Assembly (NCBI GenBank): GCA_004791645.1
Contig: SRSN01000012.1
Coordinates: 1-33,904, forward strand
Length of the DNA stretch: 33,904 nucleotides
Source of the DNA: Alcaligenaceae bacterium 429
GTDB lineage: Bacteria; Pseudomonadota; Gammaproteobacteria; Burkholderiales; Burkholderiaceae_B
Direction: 5' to 3'
Under the pieces are notes generated by a model. That model was not told where the DNA came from. It saw nothing but the letters and a program-made list of their open reading frames with translations, and made no database searches. Shown piece by piece: positions 1 to 7,867 of the stretch. The number at the start of each line of letters is the position of its first letter. Positions within the stretch are counted from its first letter, which is position 1. The translations under genes and the position numbers were made by a program.

Positions 1-21
1 CGTTTTGTATATAGGTAATGT

Positions 22-234
22 ATGGGTATAGTAAATATCGACGATGAACTGCACGATCAACTGCGCAAAGCTAGCGCTGTCACATGCAGGTCCATCAATG
101 CACAAGCGGCTTTCTGGATCAAAATGGGTATGCTGTGTGAACTGAATCCTACCGTACCGTTTAATGAGCTGGTTGCTCGTGAGCTGCAAGCTGCAGGCGT
201 AGACCCTCAATCGGCAAGTAGCACATCCTTATGA
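22..234 (+). CDS. ParD-like ribbon-helix-helix protein (orphan antitoxin-like)
   Basis: Small 70-residue protein resembling the ParD-like antitoxin family. The N-terminus reads as a ribbon-helix-helix fold: a short strand (VNIDDEL, residues 4-10), a first helix (about 10-20) and a second helix after the turn (SINAQAAFWIKMG, about 24-36). Such proteins are dimeric DNA binders that usually neutralise a ParE-type toxin. No toxin gene is visible; instead its TGA stop overlaps the ATG of map (ATGA, 231-234), so the two are probably translationally coupled. The ATG at 22 has an AGG six bases upstream. The upstream edge is cut by the window, so a partner on the left cannot be excluded. The family call is fairly sure; a toxin-antitoxin role is not shown. 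Confidence 0.82.
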   Translation: MGIVNIDDELHDQLRKASAVTCRSINAQAAFWIKMGMLCELNPTVPFNELVARELQAAGVDPQSASSTSL

Positions 235-989
235 TTAAAAGCCCCGAAGAGCTCTCCCTGATGGCAGAATCAGGAAAACTGCTGGCTGCTGTTTTTGCAC
301 ATGTAGATAGCTACAACCTAATAGGCATGTCTACCATGCAGATCAACGATATCGTTGATCATTTTATTGTTCATGAGCTACACGCCCGCCCTGCTAGCAA
401 GGGTCAATACGGCTATGCCTATGCCCTCAATGCCTCACCCAACAATGTAGTGTGTCATGGCATGCCCTCACACACCGATATTCTACAAAACGGCGATATC
501 GTCAATTTCGATATTACGTTAGAAAAAAATGGCTTTATTGCTGACTCCAGCAAAACCTACATGGTGGGCGAGGTATCGCCTGCCGCCAAGAAATTAGTGC
601 AAATCACCTACGAAGCCATGTGGAAAGGTATTCGTGCTGTGCGCCCTGGTGCAAGATTAGGTGATATAGGTCATGCCATTGAACGCCACGCACGCCTGCA
701 TGGTTACTCTGTTGTGAGGGACTACTGCGGCCACGGCATTGGTAGAGAAATGCACGAGCAGCCTGATGTACTGCACTGGGGTAAACCTAAAACTGGGCAG
801 ACCTTAAAAGAAGGCATGGTGTTCACCATTGAACCTATGCTGAATCAAGGTAGCTATTACGTGCATACTGAGCACGATGGCTGGACAGTAGTCACCGACG
901 ACGGCAAACTTTCAGCCCAATTTGAGCATACGGTTGCTGTCACGCGCACAGGCGTCAAAGTACTCACGCTGCGTGACGAAGAGAAATAA
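231..989 (+). CDS. map: Type I methionine aminopeptidase
   Basis: Removes the initiator methionine from nascent proteins in the cytoplasm using a dinuclear metal centre. The 252-residue length fits the type I catalytic domain without an N-terminal extension. All expected residues are visible: His76 (VVCHGMPS), metal ligands Asp94 and Asp105 (NFDITLEKNGFIADSS), His168 (CGHGIGREMHE), Glu201 (TIEPML) and Glu232 (QFEHTVAVT). It starts inside the stop codon of the ParD-like gene, so expression is likely coupled to it. It is not beside rpsB, where proteobacterial map often lies, so it may be a second copy; this cannot be decided from the window. Confidence 0.96.
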   Translation: MIKSPEELSLMAESGKLLAAVFAHVDSYNLIGMSTMQINDIVDHFIVHELHARPASKGQYGYAYALNASPNNVVCHGMPSHTDILQNGDIVNFDITLEKNGFIADSSKTYMVGEVSPAAKKLVQITYEAMWKGIRAVRPGARLGDIGHAIERHARLHGYSVVRDYCGHGIGREMHEQPDVLHWGKPKTGQTLKEGMVFTIEPMLNQGSYYVHTEHDGWTVVTDDGKLSAQFEHTVAVTRTGVKVLTLRDEEK

Positions 990-1017: not shown

Positions 1018-1806
1018 CTAAGCGTTGGTGTAGGCAGGCAAATCTGCTTGCCTGAACGCGGACGGCGACCGCCCCAATTGTTTTCTAAACATCGCTGAAA
1101 ATGCCGCAGGGCTTTCATACCCCAAGTCCAACGCAACCTGTGTCACCGACTGCCCTGTGGATAATCTTGTTAAAGCAGCCATCAAGCAAGCTTGCTGACG
1201 CCACTCACCAAATGACATACCGGTCTGTTGCCTAAAAAAACGCGTAAACGTGCGTAAGCTTTTATGTAAAGACTCTGCCCACGCATCAGGTGTGGATTGG
1301 ATACTAGGCTGCAACAAGAAAGCTTTACACTGCTCAGCTAGCAACACATCGTGGGGCAGTGGTGCAAACAGTGGCATGGTAGGCGCACGCCCTACCTCGT
1401 ACAGGAGTAATTGCATCAATGCCCCGTCGCGTCCTGCTTCGTCGTACAGTGCTGGCACATCTAAAGACGCCAAAAGTAAATGGTGCAACAGCGGCGAAAT
1501 AATTAATGCCTCGCATTGCTCTGTCGCTCTAGGCGCTGCCTGCGGTTCTATGTATAAGCTACGCGTACTAACCCCCTGCATACGCACACGATGGGGCTGC
1601 CCCGCTGGAATCCACACACCACTGTACGGCGGAATCACCCACGCGCCTGCAGCGGTATCCACTTCCATCAGCCCACTCATGCCATAGAGCATTTGTGCTC
1701 GCCTATGACTGTGCGTATCCAATAGCGTACCCGGCGTGTAATCCGTACCTATTGCCAACACAGGTCGGTCAACAGCATCTACCTCTATGAGTCGTACATT
1801 GTGCAT
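1018..1806 (-). CDS. AraC-family transcriptional regulator with N-terminal cupin
   Basis: About 262 residues. The N-terminal half is a cupin-like sensor domain with the histidine pattern HSHRRAQ followed by WIPAGQPHRV. The C-terminal hundred residues form the AraC double helix-turn-helix, ending in VALDLGYESPAAFSAMFRKQ, the well-conserved second HTH. The reading frame is open to a GTG at 1833, but no Shine-Dalgarno precedes it; the ATG at 1804-1806 has a purine-rich AGAGAAAG just upstream and gives the N-terminus MHNVRLIEV, so I chose it. It is divergent from the TSUP transporter, with a 14-bp dyad between them, which suggests it controls that transporter and possibly itself. The ligand is unknown. 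Confidence 0.88.
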   Translation of the reverse strand: MHNVRLIEVDAVDRPVLAIGTDYTPGTLLDTHSHRRAQMLYGMSGLMEVDTAAGAWVIPPYSGVWIPAGQPHRVRMQGVSTRSLYIEPQAAPRATEQCEALIISPLLHHLLLASLDVPALYDEAGRDGALMQLLLYEVGRAPTMPLFAPLPHDVLLAEQCKAFLLQPSIQSTPDAWAESLHKSLRTFTRFFRQQTGMSFGEWRQQACLMAALTRLSTGQSVTQVALDLGYESPAAFSAMFRKQLGRSPSAFRQADLPAYTNA

Positions 1807-1836
1807 AACTTTCTCTGTTTGGCCTAAACTCACCCA

Positions 1837-1850
1837 TTATTGACCAATAA
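1837..1850. promoter_or_regulatory. Candidate operator: perfect dyad between divergent AraC and TSUP genes
   Basis: TTATTG-AC-CAATAA, two perfect 6-bp arms around a 2-bp centre, lies in the roughly 100-bp divergent intergenic region, 31 bp upstream of the chosen regulator start. Position suggests an operator or an A/T-rich promoter element. AraC proteins more often bind direct repeats, so the binder is uncertain. Confidence 0.35.
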
Positions 1851-1908
1851 GCTAAAGCAGGCCAGAGCTGGCGTGCCTATAGTACAGTTTTAATTCTAGA
1901 GATTGATC

Positions 1909-2718
1909 ATGTACTGGCTACTCTTAGGCTTTGGTGTGCTAACTGGTGTCACCACGGTGTTATTCGGTTTTGGTGGTGGGTTTATTGTGGTTCCACTGCT
2001 ATATACCTTGTTGCTAGCACTGCATGGAACACAAAGCGAAATAGGCCAAGCAGCTATGCATATTGCCGTGGCCACTTCTACTTGCGTGATGATCTTTGGC
2101 ACGGCCTTAGCCACGCGACGACACCTCATCGCTGGCACATTACGTTGGGACTTAATACGCCCTTTCCTGATTTACATTGCGATTGGCGCTGTGATTGGTG
2201 CAACAGCCGCATTGAACTTGAATGCCACCTGGCTACGCTGGGCATTCATTATTTATCTGATACTCACCATTCTAGATAGCTTATTTAGACCTGGTTTCTT
2301 GCATGAAAGTCAAAACAACATACGCCCTATGCCACCGCTGCAATTGGCATCACTGGGTATTACGATTGGTGGTTTCGCTGCATTGTTAGGCGTAGGCGGT
2401 AGTGTGATGACCGTACCGTTAATGCGTAGACGTGGTGCCAGCATGACCAGCGCCACCGCCATGGCTAACCCTCTGTCATTGCCTATGGCGATTTCCGGCA
2501 CCTTAACCTACATGGTTCTAGCATCCCGCGATGCTGTATCACTAGGTGCTTGGCACATTGGTTATGTGGACTTAGCGGCCTGCTTAATTCTTGTGATAGG
2601 GTCGTGGGTAGGCATACGATTAGCCGCACCTTGGATTGGTCGCATCCCCGACCGCATACACGCCAAAATCTACATTTTTCTGCTTTGTCTTGTACTAGGT
2701 GTGATGATAGTAGTGTGA
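1909..2718 (+). CDS. TSUP-family (TauE/SafE) membrane transporter
   Basis: A 269-residue polytopic inner-membrane protein. Two glycine-rich half-repeats typical of the TSUP family are visible: GFGGGFIVVPLL near the N-terminus and LLGVGGSVMTVPLM near the middle, each followed by hydrophobic helices, about eight in all. TSUP proteins export or import small anions such as sulfite, sulfoacetate or other organosulfur compounds; the substrate here cannot be read from sequence. The frame is open to a TTG at 1903, but the ATG at 1909 follows TAGAGA (1897-1902) at a good distance and is preferred. Divergent from an AraC regulator. A hairpin at 2813-2837 could end its transcript. Confidence 0.9.
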   Translation: MYWLLLGFGVLTGVTTVLFGFGGGFIVVPLLYTLLLALHGTQSEIGQAAMHIAVATSTCVMIFGTALATRRHLIAGTLRWDLIRPFLIYIAIGAVIGATAALNLNATWLRWAFIIYLILTILDSLFRPGFLHESQNNIRPMPPLQLASLGITIGGFAALLGVGGSVMTVPLMRRRGASMTSATAMANPLSLPMAISGTLTYMVLASRDAVSLGAWHIGYVDLAACLILVIGSWVGIRLAAPWIGRIPDRIHAKIYIFLLCLVLGVMIVV

Positions 2719-2791
2719 CCCCACCTACCACAAAGCACAGTCTGAAATGGCCGCCCCGCTGCACTGCCATGCGATGCACAGGGCTTTGTCA

Positions 2792-2797
2792 TATAAT
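2792..2797 (+). promoter_or_regulatory. Candidate -10 box (TATAAT) for pyrF
   Basis: An exact TATAAT at 2792-2797. No good -35 is seen at the normal distance (TTGTCA abuts the -10 directly and is not correctly placed). A transcript from here would begin near 2804 and run at once through the hairpin at 2813-2837 before pyrF. Confidence 0.45.
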
Positions 2798-2812
2798 GTA
2801 GTCCGTCCCAAC

Positions 2813-2844
2813 AGGCATCAACACTAGGTTGATGCCTTTCTTTA
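2813..2844 (+). terminator. Hairpin with T-rich tail before pyrF (terminator or leader element)
   Basis: AGGCATCAAC (2813-2822) pairs perfectly with GTTGATGCCT (2828-2837) around a 5-base loop and is followed by TTCTTT. It may be the intrinsic terminator of the TSUP gene. Because a TATAAT lies just upstream, it could also sit in the pyrF 5' leader. Confidence 0.6.
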
Positions 2845-2863
2845 GCCCCCATCACGCACGCAC

Positions 2864-3688
2864 ATGAACACCTTCAACTCCAAACTAGAACACGCCTGGA
2901 ATCAAACCAACTCACTTTTGATGGTGGGCTTGGACCCCGATCCCAACCGCTTTCCTGCCGAGTTGCGTGATTGCCCTAATGCTATTTTCGAGTTTTGCCG
3001 CCAAATCGTAGACGCTACAGCCGAATACGCTTGCGGTATCAAACCCCAAATCGCTTACTTTGCGTCAGGTGCTGCTGAAGAACAGTTGGAAGCGCTGTGC
3101 CAATACGTACGTGAACATTACCCTTGGCTGCCCATCGTATTAGATGCCAAACGTGGTGACATTGGCTCTACCGCCAATCACTACGCCTTGGAAGCCTTTG
3201 GCCGTTACCAAGCCGACGCTGTTACCGTAAACCCATACATGGGTTTTGACTCGGTAGAACCTTACTTGGAATGGGATGACAAAGGCGTGATCGTGTTGTG
3301 CCGCACCTCTAACGCTGGCGGCTCTGACCTGCAATTCCTGAAATTGGAAAATGGTCAGCCCTTGTACCTACATGTAGCCGAACTCGTGGCAAACAAATGG
3401 AACAAGAAAGGTCAGTGTGGTTTGGTGGTAGGCGCTACCTTCCCTGAAGAAATCGCCGCTGTACGTCAGCACGTAGGTGATATGCCTTTATTGATTCCAG
3501 GCATTGGTGCTCAAGGTGGTGATATTCCTGCCACTGTTGTTGCAGGCGCTAGCAGCACAGGCAATGGCATGATGATCAACTCATCACGCGCTATTTTGTA
3601 CGCCAGCCAAGGTGAGGATTGGCGCGAAGCCGCAGCACAAGCGGCTCGCCAAACCCGCGACGCGATCAATCAAGCGCGCGGTCGTTAA
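2864..3688 (+). CDS. pyrF: Orotidine 5'-phosphate decarboxylase, type 2
   Basis: Last step of de novo UMP synthesis: decarboxylates OMP to UMP in the cytosol. At 274 residues it matches the longer type 2 subfamily rather than the roughly 240-residue type 1 enzymes. The catalytic Asp-Lys-Asp network is in [13 protein letters not shown] (Asp94, Lys96, Asp99), with substrate-binding [11 protein letters not shown] at 21-31 and the phosphate loop PGIGAQGGD at 212-220. It is monocistronic and faces the pncC-pgpA operon end with only 3 bp between stop codons. A candidate promoter and a hairpin lie in its leader. Confidence 0.96.
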
Positions 3689-3691
3689 GTT

Positions 3692-4189
3692 CTACAATGA
3701 CGTGAATGCGCTGTGCAAAATAAATTGCACAGCCTGTTCGCGTACGTGCGCTCTATCACCTTCAAAAAGCTGTGTATAAGCACGCGCCGTAACGCCTTCC
3801 TCGGTGCGTCTAGCCACAGCAAAACACACCATACCTACTGGTTTACCTGCTGTAGCGCCGCCTGGCCCAGCAATGCCTGTAGTAGACACAGCCAAATTTG
3901 CCTTAGGCACTACTGCCAACACCCCTGCTGCCATTTCCATGGCTGTTTCTTCACTTACTGCACCAAAACGCTCTAGCGTATCGGTATTCACACCTAACTC
4001 TTCTTGCTTGGCTTCATTGCTGTAGGTGATGTAGCCACGCTCAAACCAGTTGCTAGAGCCCGCAATAGCCGTGCAAGCCCCTGCTACCAAACCACCTGTA
4101 CAAGACTCCGCTGTCGCCAGAAAAAGCTTTTCTCGCGTCAGTTTGTCACCTAATGCAGCAGCCAACTCAATAATGGATGTATTCAGCAT
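3692..4189 (-). CDS. pncC: Nicotinamide-nucleotide amidohydrolase PncC (CinA C-terminal domain family)
   Basis: A 165-residue stand-alone CinA C-terminal domain. It converts NMN to nicotinate mononucleotide and ammonia in pyridine-nucleotide salvage. Family motifs are present: AESCTGG (27-33), YITYSNEAK (53-61), GIAGPGG (105-111) and KPVG (116-119). The N-terminal molybdopterin-binding-like half of full CinA is absent, which is normal for proteobacterial PncC. Its ATG directly abuts the TAA of pgpA (TAAATG), making it the last gene of the ribBA operon. Its stop is 3 bp from that of convergent pyrF, so no room is left for a separate terminator. Confidence 0.94.
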   Translation of the reverse strand: MLNTSIIELAAALGDKLTREKLFLATAESCTGGLVAGACTAIAGSSNWFERGYITYSNEAKQEELGVNTDTLERFGAVSEETAMEMAAGVLAVVPKANLAVSTTGIAGPGGATAGKPVGMVCFAVARRTEEGVTARAYTQLFEGDRAHVREQAVQFILHSAFTSL

Positions 4190-4696
4190 TTAGAACACCT
4201 CGAAACGTACCAATAGCGCCATGATGATCACCACGTAAAGCGCAGCAAGTAAATCGTCCAGCATCACCCCAAAACCGCCCTTAAAACGACGGTCTAAGAA
4301 GCGAATAGGTTCCGGTTTAACAATATCAAAAAATCGGAACAGAATAAATGCGCAGAGCTGTGCCCATAACGAGGCCGGTGTAAAACACAGCACCAACCAC
4401 ATCGCAACAGCTTCATCCCAGTTCATACCACTGTGATCTGGCTCACCCAACTCATCACCCACTTTTTGACTGACCCAACATCCTACAAGGAAGCCTACGC
4501 CCCCTGCAGTTAGAGCCAACCACAGCGGCATAAACTGTCCAAGCACCAACCACAGCGCCCAGCCCAGTACAGTTCCCCAGGTACCAGGGCCAGGATAAAT
4601 CACCCCACTACCAAAACCGAAGGCCACAATGCGCTCAGGGCGCTCAAACACCCAACGCAAAGAAGGGCGAGACTGTTGAGAGTAATCTTTAACCAT
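4190..4696 (-). CDS. pgpA: Phosphatidylglycerophosphatase A
   Basis: Dephosphorylates phosphatidylglycerophosphate to phosphatidylglycerol at the inner membrane. Signature blocks: GFGSGVIYPGPGTWGT near the N-terminus, DELGEPDHSGMNWDE with the acidic metal-binding residues, FFDIVKPEPI, and GGFGVMLDDLLAA with the Asp pair. Several hydrophobic segments fit a membrane protein. The frame also has an ATG at 4723 overlapping the thiL stop (ATGA), but the ATG at 4694-4696 has a clear AGGA eight bases upstream and gives a typical 168-residue protein, so I chose it; the longer form (177 residues) stays possible. It lies between thiL and pncC in one operon. Confidence 0.93.
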   Translation of the reverse strand: MVKDYSQQSRPSLRWVFERPERIVAFGFGSGVIYPGPGTWGTVLGWALWLVLGQFMPLWLALTAGGVGFLVGCWVSQKVGDELGEPDHSGMNWDEAVAMWLVLCFTPASLWAQLCAFILFRFFDIVKPEPIRFLDRRFKGGFGVMLDDLLAALYVVIIMALLVRFEVF

Positions 4697-4722
4697 GCTT
4701 ATTTCCTGTAGCACAGGCGTCA

Positions 4723-5682
4723 TCAGGCGAAATGATCAAAACCTTGATGAGCTAAGAGAAGAGGTTGTCCGTTCTGATCTAGCACACGTAGGCCAGAACC
4801 ATTAACGATGCGGCCAATACGATGCACCACAATATCATGTTGCTCAGCCAACGCTTGTAGTGCGTCGCGCTGTGTTGCAGCAGCGGTAAAACATAACTGA
4901 AACACATCACCACCTGCCAACATGGCTTCGTTCTGCAGATCAGTAGATAGACCACGCAAAGCATCATGCATAGGAAGGTCTGCAAGCATCAGTTCAGCGC
5001 CACATTGACTGGCTTTTAGAATATGGCCTAAATCTTGAGCTAGGCCGTCAGAAATATCGATAGCAGCGTGTGCCATACCGGGTAGGTGCGCCGCAAACGA
5101 CACAGGCGGTGCTGGGTTTTCCAAAGCTGCTCTAGAAGCATGCAGGCGCTGTGTGTCTAGCTCTAGGCTGCCACTTAAATAGCGTAATGCTAAGTCTGCT
5201 GCCCCCAGATACCCAGTGACCCAAATGTCATCGCCCTCTTGCGCATCACTACGCAATAACGCTTTGCCTCTAGGCACTTCGCCCATTACCGTCACACCAA
5301 TCGTAATGTGATCCAGTGATCGGGTCGTATCGCCACCAATTAAGGGGCAATGATGCGCATCCGCCATTTCCAGAAAGCCACGGCTAAAACCAGCTAGCCA
5401 TACTTCATCTACCGATGGCAATGCCAAACTAAGCAGGCACGCACGCGCGGAAGCACCCGCCGCCGCAAGGTCTGACAGGTTCACTGCCAAGGCTTTGCGC
5501 CCCAGCAAATAGGGATCCACATCAGAGAAAAAGTGCCGCCCTTCCAGCAACAGGTCGGTGCTGGTGGCCAAGTCATGGCCTGAGCGCAATGAAAAAATCG
5601 CACAGTCGTCACCAACCCCTACCATCTTTTCAGGGGCAGGACGGGTGAAATACTGTGCGATTAGATCAAATTCTTTAGGCAA
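4723..5682 (-). CDS. thiL: Thiamine-monophosphate kinase
   Basis: Phosphorylates thiamine monophosphate to the cofactor thiamine diphosphate using ATP. The 319-residue protein shows the AIR-synthase-like ThiL fold: EFDLIAQYF at the start, VGVGDDCAIF (21-30) and STDLLLEGRHFF (41-52) for metal and nucleotide binding, AVNLSDLAAAGA, the LIGGDTTRS block near 114-122 and AIDISDGLAQDLGHI near 210. The start codon is TTG (5680-5682); no ATG is suitable because the conserved N-terminus begins immediately. It lies 1 bp after the nusB stop without a strong Shine-Dalgarno, so translation is probably coupled to nusB. Confidence 0.95.
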   Translation of the reverse strand: MPKEFDLIAQYFTRPAPEKMVGVGDDCAIFSLRSGHDLATSTDLLLEGRHFFSDVDPYLLGRKALAVNLSDLAAAGASARACLLSLALPSVDEVWLAGFSRGFLEMADAHHCPLIGGDTTRSLDHITIGVTVMGEVPRGKALLRSDAQEGDDIWVTGYLGAADLALRYLSGSLELDTQRLHASRAALENPAPPVSFAAHLPGMAHAAIDISDGLAQDLGHILKASQCGAELMLADLPMHDALRGLSTDLQNEAMLAGGDVFQLCFTAAATQRDALQALAEQHDIVVHRIGRIVNGSGLRVLDQNGQPLLLAHQGFDHFA

Positions 5683-5683
5683 C

Positions 5684-6184
5684 TCAGCTGCGATTCTGGT
5701 ATTTCTTGACTTCAGCAGGACGTACTGCCGCTGCCACTCGGTCTAGAACACCATTCACGAACTTGAAGCCGTCAGTGCCGCCAAATTCTTTTGCCAACTC
5801 AACAGCCTCGTTGATGGCTACACGGTAAGGCACTTCTACGTGGTGGGCCAACTCATAGCTGCCCAGCAACAAGATGCCGTGCTCAATGGGAGACAGCTCT
5901 TCCAAAGGACGATCCACGTGTGGCATGAACTGCTCACGCAATTCTGGTGCCTCTTGAATCACCCCGTAAAACAGCGTGTGGTACCACTGTGCATCGGCGT
6001 CGTTAAAGTATTCTTCACCGCGTATATGTGCATCAATAGCCCCCGCTTCGCGGGTACCATCAACACCACGGATCAACCAAGCATAAACCCCCTGCAACGC
6101 AAACTCGCGTGCCCGTCTGCGGGCACTGCGAGTGGGGTTCTGGCGACCGTTACTACCCGGCGTTTTATTCGTCGTCGTTGTCAA
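5684..6184 (-). CDS. nusB: Transcription antitermination factor NusB
   Basis: RNA-binding component of the Nus antitermination complex acting on rRNA operons with NusE (S10). The conserved all-helical domain starts at [18 protein letters not shown] and continues through [15 protein letters not shown] and [19 protein letters not shown] to [13 protein letters not shown], all typical NusB blocks. An ATG at 6217 would overlap ribH by 53 bp and has no Shine-Dalgarno. The TTG at 6184 has GAGGA eight bases upstream, inside the codons for the acidic ribH tail, and yields an N-terminus ([13 protein letters not shown]) of more usual length, so I prefer it (166 residues; 177 from ATG). Confidence 0.95.
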
Positions 6185-6683
6185 AATCTTCTTCCTCTTC
6201 GAACTCGTCTTCTTCATCGAAGTCGGGTTCTAGCAATGCCATCAAGTTGGCCATTTCTACCGCTGTACGGGCACAATCACGGCCTTTCTCAGCAGCGCGC
6301 ACCTGCGCTTGTTCATCATTTTCGGTAGTCAGAATACCGTTGGCAATAGGCATGCCCATTTCCAGCGACACACGGCTAATAGCCGCTGCGCTTTCGTTAC
6401 TGACAATCTCGAAGTGGTAGGTTTCACCACGGATTACGGCACCCAATGCAACCAATGCATCGAACTCGCCTGTTTCAGCCATTTGAGCCAAAATCAAACC
6501 CGCTTCCAAAGCACCAGGAATAGACAACACTGTGATGTCACGTGCATCTACACCCAACGCCACCAGTTCTGCCACGCAAGCTTCCAGCTGCGCTGTACCG
6601 ATTTCTTCGTTGAAACGTGCACGAACAATACCTACGTGCAGGCCTTCGCCGTTAAAGTCAGGATTTACAATATAAGGATTCAT
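6165..6683 (-). CDS. ribH: 6,7-dimethyl-8-ribityllumazine synthase
   Basis: Condenses the DHBP product of RibB with the ribityl-pyrimidinedione to make lumazine, the penultimate step of riboflavin synthesis. Conserved blocks: [37 protein letters not shown] with the catalytic His, and [17 protein letters not shown]. The ATG at 6681-6683 has GGAG eight bases upstream; a TTG at 6701 overlaps the ribBA stop but lacks a site. The protein is about 172 residues because it carries an unusual Asp/Glu-rich C-terminal tail of about 20 residues beyond the usual end; its codons overlap the start of nusB. Confidence 0.95.
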
Positions 6684-6697
6684 AGTGGCGGCTCCGA

Positions 6698-7867
6698 TCA
6701 AGCAGAATGAGTTGGTTCGCTATAGTAACCCGTAATGGTCAGGGCAAAGCCTGCCATACTTGGCATTTTACGTGGACGGGCCAGTAATCGCGCTTTGCCC
6801 ACATTCAAATCACGCAAGATTTGTGCACCAATACCGTAAGTACGCAAATCGTAGCGGTGTTGACGTTGTTCGCCAGCAGCAGAGGCACCCTCGGCTTGGC
6901 GTGCAGAGAACTGCTCAAACAAGGTATCAGCCTCGCCTTGGCAATTCATTAATACCACAACACCGGCCTCGGATTGTTTAATTACATCCAATGCACCAGC
7001 AACTGTCCAACTGTGCTCTTTACCTTCGGAGCACAACAAATCCAACACGGTTGTTGGCTCATGCACACGCACCAGCGTTTCGGTGTCTGGCGAAATAGTG
7101 CCATGTTGTAACGCCAAGTGCAGCGCACCTGATGCCAAATCACGGTAACCAATCGCTTGGAATTTGCCCCAAGGAGTAGTCAGTTCGTTATCGAACAGAC
7201 GCTCAACCATGGATTCGTGTTCGCTACGGTATTGAATCAAATCGGCAATCGTACCGATTTTCAAACCATGCTCACGCGCAAATACGATCAGGTCTGGCAA
7301 CCGTGCCATGCTGCCATCAGGTTTCAAGATTTCACAGATAGCGGCAGCAGGAGTAAGCCCTGCCATACGTGTCAAATCGCAACCAGCTTCGGTATGGCCG
7401 GCACGTACCAACACGCCGCCATTCACTGCTTTGACGGGGAAAATGTGGCCTGGCTGTACCAAATCAGCGGGTTTAGCATCGTGTGCAACTGCCGCCTTAA
7501 TAGTGCGGGCACGGTCAGCTGCCGAAATACCGGTAGCCACGCCTTCAGCGGCTTCAATGGATACCGTGAAATTTGTACCAAAGCGCGTGCCATTACGGGA
7601 CGCCATCAGGGGCAGATCCAGTTGTAAGCAACGTTCTTCGGTCAGGGTCAGGCACACCAGTCCGCGTGCATGGGTAACCATGAAGTTAATGGCTTCTGGC
7701 GTGACAAACTCTGCCGCCATTACCAAGTCGCCTTCATTCTCTCGGTCTTCTTCATCGACCAGAATCACCATCCGACCAGCCCGTAGCTCAGCCACGATCT
7801 CGGTCACGGATGAAATTGCCTGTTGCATATCCGCTTCGGAAAGCTCTGTCTGTACTGTATGACTCAT
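6698..7867 (-). CDS. ribB: DHBP synthase with degenerate GTP cyclohydrolase II domain (RibBA/RibBX type)
   Basis: The N-terminal half (about 15-215) is a complete 3,4-dihydroxy-2-butanone 4-phosphate synthase: [18 protein letters not shown] (37-54), [14 protein letters not shown] (158-171) and Glu179 in ICEIL. It converts ribulose 5-phosphate to DHBP plus formate for RibH. The C-terminal half (about 233-389) aligns with GTP cyclohydrolase II but lacks the zinc-binding cysteines: where active enzymes have RVHSECLTGD followed by CDCG, this protein has [19 protein letters not shown] with one cysteine. GTP cyclohydrolase activity is therefore unlikely, and a separate ribA is expected elsewhere. 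The ATG has AGGA seven bases upstream. It is the first gene of the operon; no FMN riboswitch fits in the short leader. Confidence 0.92.

Follow-up and report, generated by a model that had tools for sequence, protein, structure and literature searches.

An antitoxin-type RHH gene and a spare methionine aminopeptidase gene as a putative self-contained module, also carried on plasmids

The window analyzed here, 33,904 nucleotides at the start of a contig from Alcaligenaceae bacterium 429, opens with a small gene of the PF11903 (ParD_like) family that overlaps the gene for an alternative type I methionine aminopeptidase (Map). We propose, with a probability of about 0.8, that such pairs constitute a self-contained module, also carried on plasmids, in which an antitoxin-type RHH protein would act as a repressor of itself and of a spare Map with a possible tolerance to an inhibitor or analogue. 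The pairing of the two genes, the lack of ParE-like and zeta-like toxin genes beside them, an array of short palindromes in front of them, the near-confinement of this array to the pair in the genomes that have it, the presence of a second map gene, and the changes in the methionine pocket of the enzyme were all seen directly in the sequences. The sequence-only reading of this DNA had offered two possibilities, namely, a dedicated regulator of an alternative map gene or a module with aminopeptidase activity as its controlled output; both gained support, as the sequence evidence fits both and proves neither.

The two-gene locus and its distribution

The small protein at the start of the window matched the PF11903 ParD_like profile at 66.1 bits (curated gathering cut-off, 23), and the product of the following frame matched TIGR00500, the type I methionyl aminopeptidase profile, at 289.9 bits (cut-off, 171.35). 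The 70-residue ParD-like ORF with a stop codon overlapping the map start codon, as described in the sequence-only reading, was confirmed together with the map ORF and the ATGA overlap (Table 1), and the translation of the two genes is likely to be coupled through this overlap. The source genome contains one PF11903 gene. The same reading had raised the question of a second map gene beside rpsB, and a canonical copy in that position is indeed present in the source genome (contig C14, locus L121). By sequence reading, its neighbors are a divergent gene with an RpsB-like protein start, followed by a long ORF that we took to be glnD. Beyond the pair, at positions 1018–6217 of the window, ORF reading gave an AraC-type regulator, a TauE-like permease, and an apparent housekeeping run of pyrF, cinA-like, pgpA, thiL, and nusB genes; this pyrF-to-nusB-like run places the pair at the edge of a core region.

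Table 1. Positions of the features of the RHH–map locus in the window
Feature	Position	Strand	Details
PF11903 (ParD_like) family gene, putative RHH regulator	22–234	+	70 aa, N-terminus MGIVNIDD; map-linked subfamily by alignment and neighbor
map, alternative type I methionine aminopeptidase, lineage A	231–989	+	252 aa; metal ligands intact
ATGA, RHH stop codon overlapping map start codon	231–234	+	Sequence
Predicted operator, truncated right-hand end	1–13	.	CG of middle box (1–2), TTT spacer (3–5), one imperfect box TGTATATA (6–13)

A PF11903 profile search of 398 genomes of the phylum gave 117 matches in 109 genomes, and the surroundings of all 117 were inspected. When a map gene was regarded as linked if it was on the same strand and started no more than 300 nt from the RHH stop codon, map was found directly downstream of 48 of the 117 matches. 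The 48 map-linked RHH proteins formed one subfamily, and every member of it found with the Pfam profile (48/48) adjoins map, a pairing far in excess of chance; none of the other 69 matches adjoins map, one of them (in genome G140) has a map gene 779 nt away, and the remainder showed none in the surrounding DNA inspected. Apart from the window, the map-linked loci of this sample (47) were examined over at least 1.4 kb to either side of the RHH gene. With start codons assigned by script, the two frames overlapped or lay at most 5 nt apart in 44 of the 48 pairs, and the exact −4 overlap of the ATGA type occurred in 18 of these 48 loci and in 76 of 80 further named loci.

The named loci were the best 80 of at least 592 RHH relatives and comprised 50 from Betaproteobacteria, 15 from Gammaproteobacteria, and 15 from Alphaproteobacteria. 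Because they were found with peptide patterns that included MGIV[KN]I, they are unusable for judging the N-terminus, for which the 48 loci of the phylum sample can be used. The map gene adjoined the RHH gene in 80/80 named loci, with short map frames in three of them (127 aa in L178, 226 aa in L180, and 88 aa in L230). The genes flanking the pair varied, and the commonest family within 3 kb, which looks LysR-like, occurred in only 10 of the 80 loci. These varied flanks define the unit as the two genes plus what precedes them.

The pair was also present on plasmids. A tblastn search with the RHH protein gave matches in 161 of 72,556 plasmid records, including 95 Pantoea, 12 Klebsiella, 4 Acinetobacter, and 2 Salmonella records, and no match in 50,697 phage records. 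In the 16 plasmid records inspected, map was located downstream on the same strand in 13, was divergent in two (Sulfitobacter), and was absent in one (Aureimonas). The plasmid records annotate the two genes as “ParD-like family protein” and as “map” or “type I methionyl aminopeptidase.” The conservation of the pair, for which a check had been suggested, thus extends beyond close relatives to Alpha-, Beta-, and Gammaproteobacteria and to plasmids.

Some of the plasmid loci had individual arrangements. On the two Sulfitobacter plasmids (L165, positions 4032–5207; L301, positions 1532–2707), the map and RHH genes are arranged divergently with 114 bp between them, and the genes that come next carry the annotations SAM-dependent methyltransferase and rpsU. 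The Aureimonas plasmid (L302, positions 2501–3155) carries an RHH gene of the map-linked type, with an upstream array (described below) scoring 20 of 24, without map; the next gene is annotated as hypothetical and, by sequence reading, looks SnoaL/NTF2-type. On the Pantoea plasmid pPAT9B01 (L164, positions 7105–7635), msrA, encoding methionine sulfoxide reductase, directly follows a pair with a map gene of lineage B.

All 48 genomes with the pair contained at least two map genes, and a second map gene without the pair was found in 22 further genomes of the sample, G279 among them. The G279 locus (L161, G279:C1:1600816) has a map gene of lineage A without a PF11903 gene; upstream of it, only a trace of a box remains, in the form of an isolated TATATATG-like stretch, which would fit a loss of the regulator.

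The upstream array and the RHH family

Upstream of the map-linked RHH genes, we found tandem 8-bp palindromes with the consensus CRTATAYG, repeated once every 11 bp and usually three times. A three-box score of at least 20 of 24 was obtained for 102 of 127 map-linked upstream regions, and 25 scored below this; the 127 regions include a few duplicates, and 92 of 116 reached the score after dereplication. No such score was obtained in 2,540 first-order shuffles, nor in any of 59 control regions, which were those of PF11903 genes above 40 bits without map, some of them without a recognized toxin gene. In the phylum sample, the score was reached in 27 of 33 loci with a lineage A Map and in 7 of 14 with a lineage B Map. 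Because the box consensus was derived from the same upstream regions that were then scored, this score is partly circular, and a genome-wide comparison is fairer.

When a pattern allowing one mismatch was run over the 398 genomes, it matched the upstream region of the pair in 35 of the 48 pair genomes, and a single match lay elsewhere in all 48; the remaining 13, including the genome of the window with its truncated copy, had no match. Of the 350 other genomes, 20 had matches, mostly one-mismatch and AT-rich, and a backward control pattern matched 21 genomes. We rejected a wider regulon, since the pair genomes contained just one additional site matching the three-box pattern. This site, in G360 (G360:C12:59504–59529, at about 7005–7030 of locus L122), is a second perfect three-box match approximately 1 kb beyond the pair, and the gene downstream of it is, by ORF reading, a probable flavin-binding, pyridoxamine-oxidase-like gene. 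A two-box site search of the source genome of the window found none, the window's own array being cut by the contig end. What remains of that array agrees with its relatives in position and in the 11-bp register; its one box, TGTATATA, matches 6 of 8 consensus letters, the array ends 8 nt before the start codon, and the rest lies beyond the contig end.

Among the 102 high-scoring regions, the array most often ended 9 nt before the start codon (42/102). In a lax count over 114 non-identical regions, the best −10-like hexamer fell over the array in 97, most commonly starting 4 nt into it (47/114), and TTG occurred 19–20 nt before the first box in 49; these counts are suggestive only of promoter-like elements over the array. 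A strict sigma-70 promoter scan of one locus (L202) found none. No clear three-box array was seen at some loci, among them those of G348, G146, and the Acinetobacter plasmid L163, and the Sulfitobacter plasmids have a weaker array (18 and 17 of 24) between their divergent map and RHH genes. RHH proteins with Asn5 and those with Lys5 showed no clear operator difference in the middle box.

An array at the promoter region, present at about one locus per genome and adjacent to a small RHH-family gene, is the pattern expected of an autorepressor. The near-confinement of the array to the pair in pair genomes suggests that the RHH protein is a dedicated autorepressor, with DNA binding presumed from this arrangement. 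MetJ is a small autoregulating RHH repressor that acts at tandem 8-bp met boxes, which are short palindromes in helix phase. The putative regulator of the RHH–map pair resembles MetJ in being a small RHH-family protein with helix-phased short palindromes and, presumably, autoregulation, but it differs in the sequence and spacing of its boxes, in having practically one target operon, and in having no known co-repressor.

The 48 map-linked RHH proteins were 66–91 aa in length and shared G2, H11, R15, R23, S24, N26, Q28, A29, W32, G36, and E40, 11 invariant positions among those checked. They start with M-G-[I/L]-[V/I], two of them from a TTG or GTG start codon. Conservation extends into the C-terminal part, as E54, A58, and G59 were invariant in 57 sequences close to the RHH protein of the window. 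All 30 members of a subfamily alignment matched PF11903, eight of the 30 gave a weak, sub-threshold match to FitA-like RHH, and none of the 30 matched in an NCBIfam search. An AlphaFold2 model of the monomer had a mean pLDDT of 74.6, with helices at residues 8–18 and 24–41 and no strand. Because the model is a monomer of a normally dimeric fold, structure searches with it were uninformative: Foldseek gave 12 matches, none with an E-value of 0.001 or better and none titled RHH, and VIA-align gave three weak rows with Z up to 2.8; a sequence search of the PDB with the RHH protein gave no match.

The PF11903 relatives without map have other partners. Among the 64 of them scoring at least 30 bits (five weaker matches were left out), the downstream gene was ParE-like in 48, zeta-like in seven, and neither in nine, two of which are at a contig end. 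The three ParE-like pieces compared with Pfam matched PF15781 at 78.6–87.1 bits (cut-off, 28), and the single zeta-like piece so compared matched Zeta_toxin only below the cut-off. With ParE-like and zeta-like profiles built from eight and four partial sequences of the same loci, respectively, an adjacent toxin gene was found in 55 of these 64 relatives and in 0 of 135 map-linked loci, whose flanking DNA gave no match. In a quick tree based on few columns, 20 PF11903 proteins without map separated from the 48 map-linked proteins (SH-aLRT 100). Since toxin-like partners occur elsewhere in the family, the antitoxin name fits the rest of PF11903, whereas the map-linked clade has another partner.

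The RHH–map pair and the PF11903 operons with a PF15781 ParE-like or a zeta-like toxin are alike in that a homologous RHH gene comes first and the partner lies directly downstream, often overlapping. In contrast to these operons, the partner in the pair is a complete Map, no ParE-like or zeta-like gene is nearby, Gly2 is invariant, and there is a box array that the relatives without map lacked (59/59). Because the adjacent toxin gene of type II systems, sought in the relatives as a ParE-like or zeta-like gene, was not found, we did not class the pair as a toxin-antitoxin system and instead filed it as a variant arrangement distinct from such systems, in which a putative antitoxin-type autorepressor has an alternative enzyme as its partner. 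The earlier claim that the pair comes without a toxin held for ParE-like and zeta-like genes around the 135 loci but could be upheld only in part for the window itself, which starts at base 1 of its contig (in a 391-contig assembly), so that the DNA to the left of the pair is unreadable here.

It is very improbable that the pair is nevertheless a true type II toxin-antitoxin module, with the aminopeptidase as the toxin and plasmid addiction by over-trimming. Its gene order, gene overlap, RHH family, and plasmid carriage do resemble those of toxin-antitoxin modules, but the partner is a complete enzyme with metal-ligand positions identical in all aligned Maps (see below), the host already makes such an enzyme from another map gene in all 48 pair genomes, and the lineage A map of G279 stands without an RHH gene; the lack of matches in phage records also argues against a toxin, although it bears only weakly. 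That the RHH protein is an antitoxin for a toxin encoded elsewhere, with map as a passenger, is hardly credible. The name and descent of the PF11903 family are in keeping with this, whereas the adjacency in every map-linked and named locus, the mostly overlapping genes amid otherwise varied neighbors, and the lack of ParE-like and zeta-like genes at the 135 loci speak against it.

The alternative aminopeptidase

Paired Map proteins were divided into two lineages, A and B, by a threshold of 58% identity to the window Map, and 111 lineage A (34 + 77, with a few duplicates), 14 lineage B, and 15 canonical sequences were aligned, Maps from short frames being left out. Of the 15 canonical Maps, 13 were seen beside rpsB, the exceptions being L250 and L261. 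D94, D105, H168, E201, E232, H76, and H175 (window numbering) were identical in 140/140 aligned Maps, and the first five of these are, as we assume by homology, the metal ligands, H76 and H175 being the positions of the catalytic histidines. Together with the TIGR00500 match, the identity of all seven positions bears out the earlier description of the downstream partner as a complete metalloenzyme. The window Map is about 47–48% identical to the canonical Map of its own genome (46.8% over the blast match), and the closest solved chain was 4fo7, a Map of the canonical type.

The pocket residues were taken from Table 2 of PMC10724148. In the P1 pocket, the window Map has S56, Q59, N67, and M174 at the E. 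coli positions C59, Y62, C70, and F177. The replacements Y62Q, C70N, and F177M (E. coli numbering) were present in 111 of 111 lineage A Maps, including that of the window, whereas the canonical Maps had Tyr62 in 14/15, Cys70 in 15/15, and Phe177 in 13/15; in other words, the window Map and its lineage lack the Tyr62, Cys70, and Phe177 of the canonical P1 pocket. Lineage B had Tyr62 in 14/14, Cys70 in 11/14, and Tyr at position 177 in 14/14. The P1′ pocket was kept, with C78, E204, M206, and Q233 in 140/140 Maps and Tyr or Phe at position 168 in all three groups. Thus, the canonical rpsB-linked type I Maps and the lineage A Maps share the enzyme family, the metal ligands, and the P1′ pocket but differ in three P1 pocket residues, in the operon, and in the upstream region. 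With its ligands kept and its P1 pocket changed, lineage A is probably still a working aminopeptidase, with a changed methionine site.

In a careful tree that comprised 34 Maps of lineage A, 14 of lineage B, and 22 that were canonical or of other kinds, lineage A (including the window) was placed on a long, fully supported branch, and lineage B fell on the canonical side. Forcing the two together cost 222 log-likelihood units (AU p = 7.9e−53), the groups having been named after the tree was seen. The Sulfitobacter plasmid Map fell outside both lineages in a quick tree. The paired Maps are therefore not one clade, indicating that the same kind of regulator and array has been joined to Maps of different descent, in at least two lineages. 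Four map genes without an adjacent PF11903 gene (L254 and L266, from G322 and G249; L264 and L265, from G154 and G294) branch just outside lineage B, which was perhaps recruited from among such genes.

A model of the module and its possible signals

In the most likely scheme, the RHH protein would bind, as stacked dimers, the tandem CRTATAYG boxes that cover the leader and promoter region of its operon, thereby repressing both itself and map. Its release would make a second Map available beside the housekeeping Map encoded next to rpsB. Given the rebuilt methionine pocket of the window's lineage, the spare Map would probably tolerate something that the housekeeping Map does not, such as an inhibitor or a modified first residue. 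Three leading candidates can be named for the signal that would lift repression: the Map protein, a small molecule, and the condition of the first residue of the RHH protein.

Toxins enhance repression by their antitoxins in many toxin-antitoxin operons, for example, RelE with RelB. By analogy, the signal may be the Map protein, with RHH dimers binding Map, the complex repressing better, and Map being held at a set level; we regard this as possible, at clearly less than even odds. The kinship with antitoxins, which bind their co-encoded partners, the strict co-occurrence of the RHH and map genes, and the C-terminal conservation near the window (E54, A58, and G59 in the 57 sequences) agree with such sensing. 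However, members of this RHH subfamily are paired with at least two Map lineages, as well as with the Sulfitobacter Map, which the quick tree placed outside A and B, and a private RHH–Map interface would need to have been rebuilt each time.

A small molecule or metal as the signal, such as an inhibitor of Map or a lack of metal, seems unlikely. Other RHH repressors, such as MetJ and NikR, work in this manner. Where an alternative enzyme has its own local repressor, the trigger is often scarcity or inhibition, which favors a signal of this kind; the rebuilt P1 pocket of lineage A also suggests a chemically different task. On the other hand, at 66–91 aa in all 48 cases, the RHH protein is too short to hold a sizeable additional ligand domain.

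A third and decidedly doubtful proposal is that the repressor gauges the N-terminal methionine excision capacity of the cell through its own Met-Gly-Ile N-terminus. RHH proteins touch DNA via their N-terminal strand. Map would cleave Met-Gly-Ile, though as a suboptimal substrate. With ample Map capacity, Met1 would be removed and the mature repressor would occupy the boxes; with the housekeeping Map inhibited, metal-starved, or overloaded, newly made repressor would keep Met1 and bind poorly, and the operon would open. The spare lineage A Map, with Y62Q, C70N, and F177M, would then escape the inhibitor or handle an altered first residue. Residue 2 was Gly in 48/48 map-linked RHH proteins of the Pfam-model sample, in which all four Gly codons are used, and, with starts assigned by script, in 0/69 PF11903 relatives without map; 51 of 58 such relatives (at least 30 bits, Met start) have Ala, Pro, or Ser at this residue. 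The joining of the module to more than one Map lineage is also expected if Map activity, rather than the surface of a partner, is read. In PMC12930335, Gly at P1′ ranked below Ala and Ser in a Map kinetic assay, and Ile at P2′ was in general disfavored; the profiling part of the same study assigned Gly to its best-cleaved tier (about 85%), and the substrate can thus be called slow only in relative terms. Furthermore, the requirement for Gly2 may come simply from DNA contact or strand pairing, which would count against this proposal.

A likeness to the proposed autorepressor of a spare Map is found in Bacillus subtilis, of which YvoA is a GntR-type regulator, unlike the RHH-family protein discussed here. 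According to the abstract of PMC1266368, B. subtilis has an essential map gene and a non-essential, weakly expressed second Map gene, yflG, and YvoA was reported as a possible weak repressor of the latter. YflG thus resembles the RHH–map pair as a non-essential second Map beside an essential one, with a possible repressor, but that abstract mentions no adjacent RHH gene. Other reports touch on single elements: a Map mutation led to phage resistance in streptococci (PMC6761271), map and a RelB antitoxin were ORF4 and ORF29 of one fosmid and not a pair (PMC3948609), and, for the Acinetobacter plasmid with locus L163, map was classed among virulence factors in passages that leave the RHH gene unmentioned (PMC6796979). 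In the open-licence full-text literature, judged mostly from search entries, we found no description of a pair of RHH or ParD-like and map genes.

The annotation “ParD-like family protein” is read as an antitoxin and is a misleading name for the whole map-linked clade, on chromosomes and plasmids alike. Map is essential in bacteria and is under study as a drug target. A mobile spare Map under local control, its methionine pocket altered, is what would be expected of a by-pass for Map inhibition. We know of no bacterial sensor of N-terminal methionine excision; if the repressor does read its own first residue, the module would be a direct genetic sensor of this process.
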